DNA of 64,000 nt from Rhodospirillaceae bacterium (GTDB taxonomy: Bacteria; Pseudomonadota; Alphaproteobacteria; Bin65). Every line of letters starts with the position of its first letter. Position 1 is the stretch's first letter. The notes under the pieces are model-generated. The model did not search any database, was not told the DNA's origin, and saw only the letters and a list, made by a program, of their open reading frames with translations. A program made the translations under genes and the position numbers. This document shows positions 29,018 through 39,477 of the stretch, one piece after another. The DNA lies in the NCBI GenBank assembly GCA_009840595.1, contig VXNK01000080.1:108280-172279 (forward strand). The letters are read 5' to 3'.

Positions 29018-29164
29018 ATGACGGCGCGGTCCGTAACCCGGTTTCGCCTCCTTGCGGCCGGCGTCGGCCTGCGGCTGGCCGGCGCGGCGCTCGCGGCGGC
29101 CGTTCTCTGGGCCGGCTTTTTCTGGGCAACGTCCACGCCCGGCGGATCATGGGGCGGATCATGA
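29018..29164 (+). CDS. Unannotated 48-aa small membrane protein upstream of the ABC ATPase
   Basis: MTARSVTRFRLLAAGVGLRLAGAALAAAVLWAGFFWATSTPGGSWGGS*; stop overlaps the ATG of the next gene (ATGA at 29161). Confidence 0.5.
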   Translation: MTARSVTRFRLLAAGVGLRLAGAALAAAVLWAGFFWATSTPGGSWGGS

Positions 29165-29904
29165 ACCACGCCCTTTCGTTCCGGAACCTGACCCTCGGCT
29201 ACGACCGGCATCCGGCCGTGTACCGGCTCGACGGCGAGATCGCCGCGGGCAGCCTGACCGCCATCGTCGGACCGAACGGGGCCGGCAAATCCACGATGCT
29301 GAAGGGGGTGACCGGCACGCTCCGGCCGCTCGAAGGCCGGATCGCCTTCGGCGGGATCGCGCGCAGCGAGATCGCCTATCTGCCGCAGCAATCCGACGTC
29401 GACCGGTCGTTCCCGATCGCGGTCGCCGACCTCGTGGCGATGGGCCTCTGGCGGGAGATCGGCGGCTTTGGGGGCTTGCGGGCCGGTCACCGCGCCCGCG
29501 TCGCCGATGCGATTTCCGCAGTCGGCCTCGAAGGGTTCGAGACGCGGCCGATCGGGTCGCTGTCGGGCGGGCAGATCCAGCGCGCGCTCTTTGCCCGCCT
29601 GCTGCTGCAGGACGCCCGGCTCGTTCTGCTCGACGAGCCGTTCACCGCAGTCGATGCGAAAACGGTGGCGGACCTGATCGGCGTGGTGCGGCGCTGGCAC
29701 GGCGAAGGCCGCACGGTGCTCGCCGTCCTGCACGACGTCGACACGGTGCGGGCGCACTTCCCCCGCACGCTGATGCTGGCGCGTGAACTCGTTGCCCACG
29801 GACCCACGGCGCAGGTCCTGACGGCCGAAAACCAGTTCCGCGCGCGCCAGATGTGCGAGGCTTGCGCCGGCCCGCCGCATATATGCGGGCGAGACGCCGC
29901 ATGA
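29161..29904 (+). CDS. Zn/Mn-type ABC transporter ATP-binding protein (ZnuC-like)
   Basis: Walker A GPNGAGKST, signature LSGGQIQRALFARLL, LVLLDEPFTAVD. Confidence 0.93.
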   Translation: MNHALSFRNLTLGYDRHPAVYRLDGEIAAGSLTAIVGPNGAGKSTMLKGVTGTLRPLEGRIAFGGIARSEIAYLPQQSDVDRSFPIAVADLVAMGLWREIGGFGGLRAGHRARVADAISAVGLEGFETRPIGSLSGGQIQRALFARLLLQDARLVLLDEPFTAVDAKTVADLIGVVRRWHGEGRTVLAVLHDVDTVRAHFPRTLMLARELVAHGPTAQVLTAENQFRARQMCEACAGPPHICGRDAA

Positions 29905-30770
29905 TGTGGGAGCTCCTCGTCCAGCCCTTCGCCGATTTCGGCTTCATGCGGCGCGCGCTGATGGGCTGCATCGCGGTCTCGGTCGGCGCGACGCCGGTCG
30001 GGGTGTTCCTGATGCTGCGCCGCATGAGCCTGACCGGCGACGCGATGGCCTGTGCGATTCTGCCGGGTGCGGCGGTCGGCTATCTCGTCGCGGGCCTTTC
30101 GCTCGGGGCGATGACGATCGGCGGGCTGATCGCAGGCATGGCGGTGGCGCTCCTCGCCGGCTTCGTGACCCGCGTCACGGCGCTGCGCGAGGACGCGAGC
30201 CTGGCGGCCTTCTACCTGATCTCGCTGGCGGTGGGCGTGCTGATCGTGTCGACCCGGGGCAGCAATATCGACCTGATGCATGTGCTCTTCGGGACCGTAC
30301 TGGCGCTCGACGACGCCGCGCTGGTCCTTCTGTGCTCCATCGCGAGCCTCTCGATCCTGACGCTGGCAGCCCTATTCCGGCCGCTCGTCCTCGAATGCGC
30401 GGACCCGCAGTTCCTGCGCTCGGTGAGCGGGCTCAGCGCCGCGACGCATTTCACGTTTCTCGCCCTTGTCGTGCTGAACCTGGTGGGCGGCTTTCACGCG
30501 CTCGGCACGCTCATGGCCGTCGGCATCATGATCCTTCCCGCCGCCGCTGCGCGCTTCTGGGCCGTCGGCATCGGCGCGCTGATCGCCGTCGCCGCCTCGG
30601 TTGCGCTGCTCTCGAGCCTGACCGGCCTTCTTCTTTCCTACCATTTCAGCCTGCCGTCCGGGCCGGCGATCATTCTCGTCGCGGGTGTCGCCTACGCGCT
30701 GTCGCTGGTCTTCGGACCGGTGGGCGGGCTCGCCGCGCGGGCCTTCCCGCGCCGCTATCTCGAAGCCTGA
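29901..30770 (+). CDS. Zn/Mn-type ABC transporter permease (ZnuB-like)
   Basis: MMWELLVQPFADFGFMRRALMGCIAVSVGATPVGVFLMLRRMSLTGDA. Confidence 0.92.
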   Translation: MMWELLVQPFADFGFMRRALMGCIAVSVGATPVGVFLMLRRMSLTGDAMACAILPGAAVGYLVAGLSLGAMTIGGLIAGMAVALLAGFVTRVTALREDASLAAFYLISLAVGVLIVSTRGSNIDLMHVLFGTVLALDDAALVLLCSIASLSILTLAALFRPLVLECADPQFLRSVSGLSAATHFTFLALVVLNLVGGFHALGTLMAVGIMILPAAAARFWAVGIGALIAVAASVALLSSLTGLLLSYHFSLPSGPAIILVAGVAYALSLVFGPVGGLAARAFPRRYLEA

Positions 30771-30781
30771 ACGGAGTTCCG

Positions 30782-31795
30782 ATGCCCGCCCGCAGAGCGC
30801 TTCCGATATCCGCCGCCGCCGTCCTCGCCCTGGGGTTCGCCCTGGGGTTCGCCCTGTCATTCGCCGTGCCGCTCGCCGCTCCGGCCGCCGCACAGACCGG
30901 CAAACCGATCCCGGTGGTCGCCACCTTCTCGATCCTCGGCGACATGGTGAAGCGCATCGGCGGCAAGCACGTCGCCGTCACGACGCTGGTCGGCCCCGAC
31001 GGGGATACCCATGTCTACCGGCCGACCCCGGCCGACGCGCGGGCGGTCAGCGAAGCGAGGATCCTCGTCGTCAACGGGCTGCAGTTCGAAGGCTGGCTGG
31101 ACCGCCTGATCGACGCTTCGGACTTCCGCGGGGTCCGGGTGGTGGCGACCGACGGCATCGAGCCGATCGCTTTCGAGGACGGCGGCCACGACGATCACGC
31201 CGGGCACGCCGGGCACGCCGGACACGCCGGGCACGCCGGACACGGCCACCACGGCCACGACCACGGCGCCTTCGACCCCCATGCCTGGCAGAGCGTCCGC
31301 AACGCAACGGTGTACGCGCACAACATCGCCGCGGCGCTGGCCAGGGCCGCTCCGGCGAAGGCCGCCGCGTTCTCCCGCAATCGCGCGGCCTATCTGGACG
31401 AACTCGAGGCCCTCGACGCGGAAATCGACAGGATCGTGGCCAGGCTGCCCGCAGGGCGCCGGACCGTCGTCACCTCCCACGACGCGTTCCAGTATTTCGG
31501 CCGCCGATACGGGCTGACCTTCATCGCGCCGCAGGGGCTCAGCACCGAGTCGGAGGCGTCGGCGAAGGGTGTCGCCCGCCTGGTCCGGCAGATCCGCGCA
31601 GAGGGCATCCGCGCCGTCTTCGTCGAAAACATCACCGATCCGCGGCTCCTGACGCGTATCGCGGAGGAGACGGGCGCGAGGATCGGCGGCACGCTCTATC
31701 CCGGCGCCCTGTCCGGCCCGGACGGCCCGGCGCCGACCTATCTCGACATGATGCGCCACAACGCGACGACCATCGCACGGGCGCTGGCGCCCTGA
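30782..31795 (+). CDS. Zn/Mn-type ABC transporter substrate-binding protein (ZnuA-like) with His-rich loop
   Basis: Signal peptide; VVATFSILGDMVKRIGG; HDDHAGHAGHAGHAGHAGHGHHGHDHGAFDPHAW. Confidence 0.93.
   Translation: MPARRALPISAAAVLALGFALGFALSFAVPLAAPAAAQTGKPIPVVATFSILGDMVKRIGGKHVAVTTLVGPDGDTHVYRPTPADARAVSEARILVVNGLQFEGWLDRLIDASDFRGVRVVATDGIEPIAFEDGGHDDHAGHAGHAGHAGHAGHGHHGHDHGAFDPHAWQSVRNATVYAHNIAAALARAAPAKAAAFSRNRAAYLDELEALDAEIDRIVARLPAGRRTVVTSHDAFQYFGRRYGLTFIAPQGLSTESEASAKGVARLVRQIRAEGIRAVFVENITDPRLLTRIAEETGARIGGTLYPGALSGPDGPAPTYLDMMRHNATTIARALAP
31196..31240 (+). repeat. 9-bp tandem repeat CACGCCGG[G/A] x5 encoding (HAG)n
   Basis: Five consecutive units inside the znuA-like gene. Confidence 0.9.
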
Positions 31796-32420: not shown

Positions 32421-32506
32421 CAAGCAGGCCTGTCAAGCGGATTCTCCGCGCCGGCCCGTCGTTTCACCGATTGACCGCACCGGCCCGCCGGGGCTATCGT
32501 CACGGC

Positions 32507-32812
32507 ATGACCTTCGCCCCGGACACCTATGCGATCATCGGCACGATCCTTGCCGTCGGCTTCGCCCTGGCCGGCATGGGCTGGCGCATGGCGAGCCGCC
32601 TCGACAAGCGGATCGGCGAAGACAGGGCCGCCGCCGAAGCCGACCGGCGCGCGGTGCAGGCCGCTGCCGACGCGGACCGGCGCGCCGCGCAGACCGCCGC
32701 CGACGCGGACCGGCGGCAATGGCAAGCGTCTATGGACGCCTTCCGGCAGGAAATGCTGCGCCTCGCCGAACGGCAGTCCCGCATCGAAGGCCGGATCGAA
32801 GCGGCCGAATAG
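32507..32812 (+). CDS. Small TM plus coiled-coil protein, copy 1
   Basis: MTFAPDTYAIIGTILAVGFALAGMGWRMASRLDKRIGEDRAAAEADRRAVQAAADADRRAAQTAADADRRQWQASMDAFRQEMLRLAERQSRIEGRIEAAE*. Confidence 0.7.
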   Translation: MTFAPDTYAIIGTILAVGFALAGMGWRMASRLDKRIGEDRAAAEADRRAVQAAADADRRAAQTAADADRRQWQASMDAFRQEMLRLAERQSRIEGRIEAAE

Positions 32813-32984
32813 CCGACGCCCGGCGCCGCTTCGCGGTGCGCCGCCTTTGGCCGACGGCGGAGCCGTCAAGGGATGCGGCGCCAAAGGCCCCTCGCGAAAG
32901 AAAATGCGGGACTCCTCCGGGCGGTGTGCCGGCCCGGCGTTTCACCGATTGACCTCACCGGTCCGCCGGGCCTATCGTTACAGC

Positions 32985-33257
32985 ATGACCTTCGCCCCGG
33001 ACACCTATGCGATCATCGGCACCATCCTTGCCGTCGGCTTCGCCCTGGCCGGCATGGGCTGGCGCATGGCGAGCCGCCTCGACAAGCGGATCGGCGAAGA
33101 CAGGGCCGCCGCCAATGCGGACCGTCGCGCCGCGCAAGCCGCCGCCGACGCGGACCGGCGGCAATGGCAGGCGTCCATGGATGCCTTCCGGCAGGAAATG
33201 CTGCGCCTCGCCGAACGGCAGTCCCGCATCGAAGGCCGGATCGAAGCGGCAGAGTGA
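32985..33257 (+). CDS. Small TM plus coiled-coil protein, copy 2 (tandem duplicate)
   Basis: Same protein minus an 11-residue coiled-coil segment; start offset 478 bp from copy 1. Confidence 0.7.
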   Translation: MTFAPDTYAIIGTILAVGFALAGMGWRMASRLDKRIGEDRAAANADRRAAQAAADADRRQWQASMDAFRQEMLRLAERQSRIEGRIEAAE

Positions 33258-33322
33258 TCGCCGCCCGGCGGCGTTTCGCGATGCGGCGCCTTTGGCCGGA
33301 TGTTCGTTTGGGACAACATCTT

Positions 33323-33988
33323 ATGGGCACCTCCGTCACCGACACGGTCGCCAAAGCCTTCGCACTGGCGCTTTCGGACCAGCGCGCGGTTCTTAAACGC
33401 TGGACCGGCCTCGCACGCGGAATCGGGACGCTCCTGCCGGATTCGCTGTTGTCGGCGTCCGTTTACCAGATCGGCACAGTCGACGTCCTGCTCCGGTCCC
33501 TGGAGAAAGAGCGGGAACCGCTCGTCTACGAGCAGGTCAAAAGCGACGAGGAAGTACGGCGCGAATTTCACTACCAGTGCATATTGTCGCAAAACTGGGT
33601 TTGCAGCGCATACGAAATATTCCGGCTCCTGAAGTCCCGGAAACTGGTTTCGGACAATCCCGAATTCGACGCTTTGGCGCACGATCTCCGGCTGCTGAGA
33701 ATCCCGTTCGACAAGCACCAGATCGCCGCCGACGGGGAGCTTCCCGGACCCATTGAATTCCGGTCGCCCCCCTCGCCGTTTCACGAAACGCAATATTACC
33801 TCTACGATCCGAACGATGCGCTTCGCGGCTACGATATGCTGCTGGGTGTTGCCGCCGACGGCTCCGTAATGTGGAACACGGTGGACGGCACGAACGGCGA
33901 AACGAAATGGCTGGTGCGCTCGGCATTGTCAGACAGGATCATCGCCGTTTTCGCGCCCCATTCGGAAAACGGCGGACCGGGGCGATAG
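33323..33988 (+). CDS. Hypothetical protein (221 aa)
   Basis: MGTSVTDTVAKAFALALSDQRAVLKRWTGLARGIGTLLPDSLLSASVYQIGTVDVLLRSLEKERE...; no recognised domain. Confidence 0.6.
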   Translation: MGTSVTDTVAKAFALALSDQRAVLKRWTGLARGIGTLLPDSLLSASVYQIGTVDVLLRSLEKEREPLVYEQVKSDEEVRREFHYQCILSQNWVCSAYEIFRLLKSRKLVSDNPEFDALAHDLRLLRIPFDKHQIAADGELPGPIEFRSPPSPFHETQYYLYDPNDALRGYDMLLGVAADGSVMWNTVDGTNGETKWLVRSALSDRIIAVFAPHSENGGPGR

Positions 33989-34256
33989 CTCCGCTCCGTT
34001 CCATACGCGGCCTGCACGGCGGACGCTAGCAGGCGGAGGCAACGCGGGCGGTTCGCTCGTCCACGGTCATATGGGGATTGCGCCCGCGGCAGCAACGAGT
34101 GAAGCGACGGAAAACCGACGCAGTGTGGCCTACTCTTTCCTCCCCGGCATTTCGACCGGAGCAGCAAGGTCGCGTAGTAGAGACTTTAGCCTAGGTTAGC
34201 GGCGATGACGGCCGGGAAATAAAGACTGCCTCCACCGTCAAGAATGGTCAACGCGA

Positions 34257-35195
34257 TCACTCTACTTGAGGACACTGAGACATGGCTTTAAGGCGGCTTC
34301 GAAACCTGGATTTTAGTTTCGGTTTGAGATCAAAAAGTCTTCCCTGAACACGTTCAATTTCAGAGAGGCGTCCCATCATTCGATGGTATGAAATGCGCAA
34401 ATCAATTTCCGATTCCGCTGCGTCAAATTCATCAATAGACTGACGAAGAGCCAAATGACGCGACCGTGGAGCTTTCGGGCCACGAGACGTTAACACTACC
34501 CCTGTAATGTTAGGACTCCGACCTCCATGACAATATCTCTGTTTTGATCGCTTTGGAACTAGGTTACAACGCTTGATAATGCAGCGGACTTCAGAACGAA
34601 AAGATTCAGAAATTGACGAACCTGAGAACGATATGTCATCTTGATATACCGTCATTGTCAAATTGTGTGACTGTGCCAATTCATAGAGGGCATCAAACAT
34701 TTCTTTGTGAGAAAGAAAAGCAAGAAGAGAACTCGTTGGGCTACCTGTTGGAATATGGCCTCGGTAGGTTAGTATGGTAGCCATTATTCCGGCAATATCT
34801 GAACTGCATTGAAATTGCCGGATAAAGCAGAGATAGACATGATGCCATGTGCAGGACGGGTAGAATTTAGCAATATCTACTTGAAAACTCTGAATTAGAC
34901 CAGAATGAGCTACAGCGTTGCTCAGATAGCTACGCTTTCGTTTTCCGGAATGTAGGTAGTTCGGCATCTGGATGCGCGAGAGCAGCTTCTGAACTCTATT
35001 GTGCACACGGCACATCGTCCGAATTGGCGTTTCAGTCTTCCGCTGTTTTCCATTACGTTCTGTAGTGCCTTCTTTGAATTGACCAGTAAGGTATTCGAGC
35101 CTGCGAAGTCGTCCAACACGCAATTGCAAGACCTCGGAAAGCCGGTGGATACTTGTGATCTTAAATAAAGGAGAATTTTCAATTTCGTATGGCAT
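34257..35195 (-). CDS. Retron-type reverse transcriptase
   Basis: 312 aa; NAxxH (NAVAH, codons 93-97, 34905-34919), FQVDIAKFYPS, IPTGSPTSS, catalytic YQDD (codons 184-187, 34635-34646), ITG (codons 230-232). Confidence 0.9.
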   Translation of the reverse strand: MPYEIENSPLFKITSIHRLSEVLQLRVGRLRRLEYLTGQFKEGTTERNGKQRKTETPIRTMCRVHNRVQKLLSRIQMPNYLHSGKRKRSYLSNAVAHSGLIQSFQVDIAKFYPSCTWHHVYLCFIRQFQCSSDIAGIMATILTYRGHIPTGSPTSSLLAFLSHKEMFDALYELAQSHNLTMTVYQDDISFSGSSISESFRSEVRCIIKRCNLVPKRSKQRYCHGGRSPNITGVVLTSRGPKAPRSRHLALRQSIDEFDAAESEIDLRISYHRMMGRLSEIERVQGRLFDLKPKLKSRFRSRLKAMSQCPQVE

Positions 35196-35474
35196 CTAGT
35201 CTTCCGCTATCCACTCAATGATCTTTGAAATTTTTCGGCGAATTGCTCGTTTGCGAGACCCGTTTGAAGTTTCAATACTCTCGGCGATTAAGTGGAACGA
35301 TGAAATTGGCATATTGAAGACGTTGCCGTAAGCTTGTAGAATATCTTGATGTATACGCTTTTTTCCGTTTTCGATCTCAGAAATATAGGACGGAGACAAG
35401 TTCACTTCAGCGGCGACCTCATTGACGCTCATCCGGTGGAACTTGCGCACATATCTTAAGGCATTATGTAGCAC
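35196..35474 (-). CDS. Small XRE-family HTH protein adjacent to the RT (start re-assigned to GTG)
   Basis: LRYVRKFHRMSVNEVAAEVNLSPSYISEIENGKKRIHQDILQAYGNVFNMPISSFHL; GTG at 35474 preceded by AGGGGA with 7-nt spacing; the ORF-track ATG at 35606 lies in the structured region. Confidence 0.8.
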   Translation of the reverse strand: MLHNALRYVRKFHRMSVNEVAAEVNLSPSYISEIENGKKRIHQDILQAYGNVFNMPISSFHLIAESIETSNGSRKRAIRRKISKIIEWIAED

Positions 35475-35509
35475 TAAATTTTCCCCTGGAAGGTAACTGG
35501 GGGGTCCGA

Positions 35510-35662
35510 TTAGCCTTCCAATCCTGCAAAAAGACGAAGAAGCAGAAGCAGAATTGTCAGAACGAAACGTCTGCGCAAAACGCGACGCTTCAACCATCGG
35601 AGCCACTGCGATAGGCCAGCTTTCGCTGACGACTTAGGGCAAACTGAGTTTTCGCTCTTCAT
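35510..35662 (-). CDS. Candidate 50-aa cationic/hydrophobic peptide (missed by ORF track)
   Basis: MKSENSVCPKSSAKAGLSQWLRWLKRRVLRRRFVLTILLLLLRLFAGLEG*; perfect GAAAGGAGG Shine-Dalgarno 8 nt upstream of ATG. Confidence 0.35.
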   Translation of the reverse strand: MKSENSVCPKSSAKAGLSQWLRWLKRRVLRRRFVLTILLLLLRLFAGLEG

Positions 35663-35748
35663 CGTCAGATCCTCCTTTCTCCCGCTTTCTGAAGCACCAT
35701 TGCCTCAGGCCACGAGCCTCGTATGAAAGGAGGGTCGTACTATCGCAG
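35606..35748 (-). ncRNA. Candidate retron msr-msd-like structured RNA
   Basis: Outer arms CTGCGATAG/CTATCGCAG (35740-35748 / 35606-35614) enclose stem CCTCCTTTC/GAAAGGAGG (35725-35733 / 35671-35679) and stem CTGACGA/TCGTCAG (35662-35668 / 35626-35632). Confidence 0.45.
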
Positions 35749-35763
35749 CTTTCCCCGTACCCT

Positions 35764-35794
35764 AGCCGCCAAGGCTGCCTCGTGCTTGGCGGCT
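35764..35794. other. Strong hairpin, 10-bp perfect stem (AGCCGCCAAG/CTTGGCGGCT), 11-nt loop
   Basis: Direct inspection. Confidence 0.8.
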
Positions 35795-35953
35795 CCACTC
35801 GGCGCGCGTGACCGGGTGACCGGGATGGCGTGTGCCGAGACAGTGGTGGGAGACACGCTCCCGCAGGGCCATTCGGCCCCAGTTTCAGACGAGGTTACGA
35901 GTCCTGCTGACTGCTGGTAGATAAGATCTTTGATGTAGGATACAAGGGGGAAG

Positions 35954-35970
35954 ATTCGCTATATGCGAAT
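35954..35970. promoter_or_regulatory. Operator-like palindrome ATTCGC-TATAT-GCGAAT
   Basis: 6-bp arms, upstream of the RT cassette, adjacent to the dnaE stop. Confidence 0.45.
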
Positions 35971-35997
35971 ATTTTGCTGTGCCTGTGGGTAGAGCAG

Positions 35998-39477
<3,480 letters not shown>

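Follow-up and report, generated by a model that had tools for sequence, protein, structure and literature searches.

A type VI retron whose msr-msd may close the ribosome-binding site of a small conserved open reading frame

Retrons are usually explained as complexes of a reverse transcriptase (RT) and msDNA that restrain a protein effector. For the locus described here, on the minus strand of a 64,000-nucleotide stretch of DNA (the window), the type VI models matched in PADLOC comprise an RT and a helix-turn-helix (HTH) protein alone, with no obvious effector among them. The initial annotation had proposed a retron RT with a folded RNA upstream of it, and both proposals proved right. The RT matches the PADLOC family RT_VI (4.6e-79; the runner-up family, RT_III-A, reached 4.1e-35) and the adjoining protein matches HTH_VI (2.4e-23), these being the only PADLOC models matched for type VI here. 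In an alignment of nine sequences the RT residues N93, A94 and H97, Y184, D186 and D187, and T231 and G232 are invariant. We take NAxxH, YxDD and VTG to be the motifs of retron RTs, and the window RT has ITG in place of VTG; among solved structures, the Ec86 retron RT is the closest to it in sequence. The start of the HTH protein was placed at GTG 35474 using the relatives' profile, where a mechanical ORF call gives GTG 35606. Its RT family, adjoining HTH family and RT residues place the locus among the type VI retrons, an established group of anti-phage elements in bacteria; the type is reportedly defined in the retron classification of Mestre et al. 2020. An upstream msr-msd with paired a1 and a2 was also found, at 35894-35717 and not at the coordinates first given for it.

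Those coordinates came from three nested pairings between 35606 and 35748, read as an msr-msd-like architecture, and all three are present on the minus strand where they were described. The outer arms, CTGCGATAG with CTATCGCAG, form 10 pairs including one G-U; stem 1 joins CCTCCTTTC to GAAAGGAGG; and stem 2 joins CTGACGA (35668-35662) to TCGTCAG (35632-35626). When 35590-35770 is folded to minimum energy, every pair of stem 1 and of the outer helix forms, and stem 2 forms in part (6 pairs); at -73.6 kcal/mol this fold is better than all of 200 dinucleotide shuffles of the same segment (-59.7 ± 4.5 kcal/mol; z -3.07; 0/200 as good), in agreement with the suggestion of a folded RNA. One smaller hairpin, given as ACGAG-G-CTCGT, would have a one-base loop, which RNA cannot form; its ACGAGG is the segment that we propose as a2.

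Relatives of the locus were collected from plasmids, phages, IMG/VR, genome contigs and genomes. Among the genome contigs, none of the 22 stretches from a single-protein scan was a relative and 26 of 48 were when an alignment was used; viral contigs gave 53 of 93. The 94 RT loci included 26 without an HTH match (mostly other RT types), one with a partial HTH and one with a short upstream region, leaving 66 that could be scored. Every one of the 66 (40/40 after dereplication) carries a small ORF before the HTH gene, defined by an ATG start, a Shine-Dalgarno (SD) sequence before it, a length of 30–75 codons and an end 20–75 nt ahead of the HTH gene. This definition was set after relatives had been inspected, and controls with equal thresholds found such an ORF in 0/66 loci on the reverse complement and 0/66 at 330 nt further upstream. 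In the window the ORF, of 50 codons, opens with an ATG at 35662 and extends to 35510, and the AAGGAGG lying 8 nt before it is the 3′ arm of stem 1. The dN/dS ratio was 0.20–0.50 in 14 of 15 pairs, the remaining pair not being computable, and 0.37 between the window and locus L117; by this measure the small ORF is under purifying selection. Its product is basic, then hydrophobic, a make-up that is kept despite divergent sequence, and AlphaFold predicts one helix at residues 13–49 with modest confidence (mean pLDDT 70.3). Five copies scanned against PADLOC gave no match, and only the Klebsiella phage copy among the five matches PHROG families, both of unknown function. Three further loci (L119, L122 and L138) have an RT without a detected HTH gene and a small basic/amphipathic ORF directly before the RT (the RT lies at ~2476-2488 in L119 and L122, at ~2290 in L138), and the RTs of L119 and L138 are RT_VI by scan. 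The make-up of the product suggests a small membrane-type protein, and we regard it as a candidate effector.

Stem 1 appears to be a conserved helix in which the 3′ end of the msd pairs with the SD of this ORF, and it is present with changing sequence across the family. Over the 40 dereplicated loci the mean SD/anti-SD pairing energy was -17.91 kcal/mol with each locus's own partner and -13.96 kcal/mol with swapped partners (p 5e-5, the floor of the test). Any purine-rich SD is trivially complementary to an anti-SD, and the swapped partners allow for this. Of the arms first described, those of stem 1 are conserved in homologues, as an SD/anti-SD helix, whereas the outer arms are not, except in L117.

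Comparison with relatives places the msr-msd further upstream, where the aligned leaders share one order: a TTCGC-n5-GCGAA palindrome, hairpin I, hairpin II, a long hairpin, a short segment and the SD. A segment mostly 74–83 nt after the palindrome start, the proposed a1, pairs with the segment just past the anti-SD. When contiguous helices were scored in windows 64–102 nt after the operator, in 32 of the 40 loci (eight without a usable operator position were dropped), a1/a2 scored 15.16 with their own partner and 12.88 with swapped ones (p 2e-5). The restriction to these windows was chosen after the a1 position had been seen by eye, and in controls run alongside, with the windows moved 40 nt either way, the signal was gone (p 0.22 and 0.83). 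An earlier broad-window duplex-energy test of a1/a2 was negative (own -12.56, swapped -12.25, p 0.20), and the windows were narrowed and contiguous helices scored because hairpins dominated that test. In an alignment of 14 relatives (the alphaproteobacterial set), 23 of 42 structure pairs change on both sides, a count that 0/500 shuffles reach, with both-side changes in 5/8 a1/a2 pairs and in 6/11 SD-helix pairs, the latter count being low because several rows of the alignment have that helix shifted.

For the RNA of the window itself the key relative is L117, whose RT is 50% identical. Between the two there are 11 compensated pairs and 0 broken ones over a1/a2, hairpin I, hairpin II and the long hairpin together; a1/a2 contributes 2 of its 6 pairs, and no pair differs in hairpin II or stem 1. 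When the 14 relatives were used to build a covariance model (R1), it recognised, where expected, several type VI loci kept out of its construction: L128, L120, L118 and L054 with E 2.2e-9 or better, L060 and L088 with E below 0.01. Matches to other type VI loci were weak or absent, L117 gave a weak one when filters were switched off, and the RNA of the window was not found, so the msr-msd assignment there rests on position and on L117. Two joint alignments, one with gammaproteobacterial loci and one with the window, were too poor in quality to be used, and an Rfam scan returned nothing relevant to the RNA.

An msr-msd bounded by the outer arms, as first annotated, would account for the strong predicted fold, and its outer helix recurs in L117 with one pair compensated. 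However, another pair is broken there, stem 2 is not seen in the L117 sequence, and over the 40 loci the outer arms show no excess above partner swapping (p 0.081). The 3′ arm also sits in codons of an ORF under selection, and a better-supported a1/a2 lies upstream. We consider these boundaries very improbable, and the arms, common to the window and L117 only, were rejected as a1 and a2. The comparative a1 and a2 (35894-35889 and 35722-35717) indicate that the msr-msd ends first claimed are wrong: 35606-35748 takes in no more than roughly the final 30 nt of the msr-msd, the rest being taken up by a spacer hairpin, by the ribosome-binding site and by codons 1-19 of the unannotated ORF.

Table 1. 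Positions of the proposed features within the window, with the basis for each.
Feature	Position	Strand	Basis
Retron reverse transcriptase, type VI, 312 aa, YQDD	34257..35195	-	RT_VI match and alignment
XRE-type helix-turn-helix protein, 92 aa, GTG start at 35474	35196..35474	-	HTH_VI match
Unannotated 50-codon ORF, basic N-terminus, hydrophobic helix; candidate effector	35510..35662	-	ORF and selection tests
Arm CTATCGCAG, 'a2' of the initial annotation, within codons 17-19 of the small ORF	35606..35614	-	Family and L117 comparison
Shine-Dalgarno arm GAAAGGAGG, 3′ arm of stem 1	35671..35679	-	Swap test and L117
Local hairpin between a2 and SD	35689..35708	-	Minimum-energy fold
a2, ACGAGG	35717..35722	-	Covariation and L117 comparison
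Anti-SD CCTCCTTTC, putative msd 3′ end, 5′ arm of stem 1	35725..35733	-	Swap test and L117
Arm CTGCGATAG, 'a1' of the initial annotation, within the msd	35740..35748	-	Family and L117 comparison
Long msd hairpin; 6/10 pairs compensated vs L117	35764..35794	-	L117 comparison
msr hairpin II	35848..35862	-	Relatives' alignment and L117
msr hairpin I; 3/6 pairs compensated vs L117	35865..35880	-	Relatives' alignment and L117
a1, CCTCGT	35889..35894	-	Covariation and L117 comparison
Promoter-like hexamers TTGTAT and TATCTA, 16 nt apart	35918..35945	-	By eye
Palindrome TTCGCATATAGCGAA, candidate operator for the HTH protein	35955..35969		Locus-wide pattern count

In the window the anti-SD ends 2 nt before a2, and the median gap is likewise 2 nt over 32 loci, 24 of them falling between -2 and 4; the gap was called automatically, and the 8 loci outside that range include some where another helix was chosen. 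The order along the RNA is a1, anti-SD, a2, SD, and therefore the a1:a2 and anti-SD:SD helices cross. With so short a gap between anti-SD and a2 the crossing helices could stack, and it is possible that they form one pseudoknot hiding the ribosome-binding site.

With moderate confidence we lean towards a translational lock built into the msr-msd of a type VI retron, a lock that reverse transcription would open so that a small membrane-active effector is made. The XRE protein probably represses the operon at the palindrome, the strict form of which occurs at the same place in 27 of 40 loci and only once more in the 198,684 nt of those loci; in the genome the pattern occurs in 15 places, versus 9 for a reversed control, and this recurrence elsewhere counts against the explanation. 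The promoter-like hexamers of Table 1 were not found by a consensus promoter scan. Once made, the transcript would fold into the msr-msd with a1 and a2 as in Table 1, and the segment just before a2 would pair with the SD of the 50-codon ORF and lock its translation. Retron RTs prime from a G after a1, and copying begins beside a2, so the anti-SD should be the first template and the cDNA a copy of the SD. Once it had been copied and then digested by RNase H, the strand closing the ribosome-binding site would be gone; alternatively, the SD-like 5′ end of the cDNA may free the SD on other transcripts. From the freed SD a small membrane-active peptide would be made, whose presumed toxicity would stop the infected cell and in this way serve phage defence. 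The small ORF being kept before the RT where no HTH gene is detected supports this explanation, while the failure of model R1 to find the window and the negative broad a1/a2 energy test count against it. More tentatively, as a generalisation that we think possible but are inclined to doubt, the first bases copied across type VI retrons may be an anti-SD that silences an overlooked effector ORF, which would make reverse transcription a translation switch, and msDNA could then unlock in trans as an amplifying activator and not an antitoxin.

The same anatomy of SD/anti-SD, a1/a2, small ORF and gap would also fit a switch working in the opposite direction, in which the RT on its msr-msd, or else RT-msDNA, would act as an antitoxin that keeps the pseudoknot closed until infection removes or damages the complex. 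In most retrons RT-msDNA restrains the effector, and this would favour such an arrangement. It also matches the restraining role of RT-msDNA in other retrons given in the accessible text of PMC12948488. Copying is expected to start at the anti-SD, however, so that synthesis itself would disrupt the lock; we give the opposite switch a lower but still appreciable probability. On another reading the small ORF has no effector function of its own and encodes a leader peptide, the translation of which would adjust how strongly the HTH and RT genes are expressed. That each of the 66 scorable loci has the ORF some 20–75 nt ahead of its HTH gene speaks for this. The purifying selection acts on amino acids, though, the basic-plus-hydrophobic make-up is kept while the sequence diverges, and type VI operons have no other candidate effector; we judge a leader peptide improbable. 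The lock opened by reverse transcription remains the reading we prefer.

Placed beside known systems, the window shares the RT and HTH families and the gene order of type VI retrons (RT_VI plus HTH_VI in PADLOC). A literature search found no SD lock in type VI retrons in the texts accessible to it, and the covariation of a1/a2 is likewise undescribed in the literature searched. The small ORF, as a point of difference, has no PADLOC match in the five copies scanned. A preprint, reportedly titled much like 'Reverse-transcribed ssDNA derepresses translation of a retron antiviral protein', would by that title describe the same switch, apparently in a type VI retron; if so, it supports our preferred explanation and removes its mechanistic novelty. 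The lock mechanism has thus possibly been reported already, and what is new here is the covariation shown throughout the family, together with a corrected anatomy for the locus. Phage MuM16-1 and its relatives carry the same RT/HTH pair as the window, and according to PMC8541194 two phages related to MuM16-1 have short ORFs ahead of the regulator gene.

Likenesses extend beyond retrons. For the membrane toxins ZorO and Fst of type I toxin-antitoxin systems, a 5′ structure is described as closing the SD (PMC8309996, available portion), so that a small hydrophobic peptide and an SD sequestered in its own mRNA would be common to them and the window. The window ORF is small, basic, hydrophobic and conserved, and the covarying SD/anti-SD helix suggests that its SD is closed by its own mRNA. 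Unlike in ZorO and Fst, the SD of the window would be sequestered by the template end of a retron RNA, and the locus encodes an RT. We do not class the locus as a type I system, for which an antisense RNA antitoxin would be expected. DRT2 is described in PMC12039810 as linking a pseudoknotted RNA and reverse transcription to the making of a toxic protein, and the window would resemble it in this, the pseudoknot and the toxic product being proposed here. DRT2 builds its gene by reverse transcription, whereas the window ORF is already in the transcript and the RT is of the retron kind.

A small ORF under selection, with its SD apparently closed by the template end of the retron RNA, would provide type VI with both a candidate effector and a switch. 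The type VI retron of a P2-like phage (L061) has a match in 99 of 5426 complete E. coli genomes, 98 of them over at least 80% of the query, which makes the element common enough to test. In the E. coli copy L166, the sole annotation inspected, the small ORF is listed as a hypothetical protein. An FRG-domain gene adjoins the type VI retron in L166.

In two genus-mates of the window's genome (G385 and G185) the sequence passes from ~33290 to the dnaE end at 36000 across a gap that is short, and two others (G279 and G357) have DNA beside the dnaE end without similarity to the retron; a fifth (G386) is interrupted by a contig end and a sixth (G065) gave no useful match. From the short gap and the lack of similarity, the retron appears to be located in an accessory insert of ~2.7 kb. 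The ~2.7 kb at 33290-36000 missing beside the dnaE end in G385 and G185 comprises the retron and an unknown ORF region at 33300-34000. In the ORF list, a tandem pair of near-identical small ORFs (MTFAPDTYAIIGTILAVGFALAGMGWRMASRLDKRIGEDR...) lies at 32471-32812 and ~32960-33257. The ORFs at 29149-31795 resemble by eye an ABC ATPase, a membrane permease and a His-rich substrate-binding protein, such as zinc or manganese uptake operons have.
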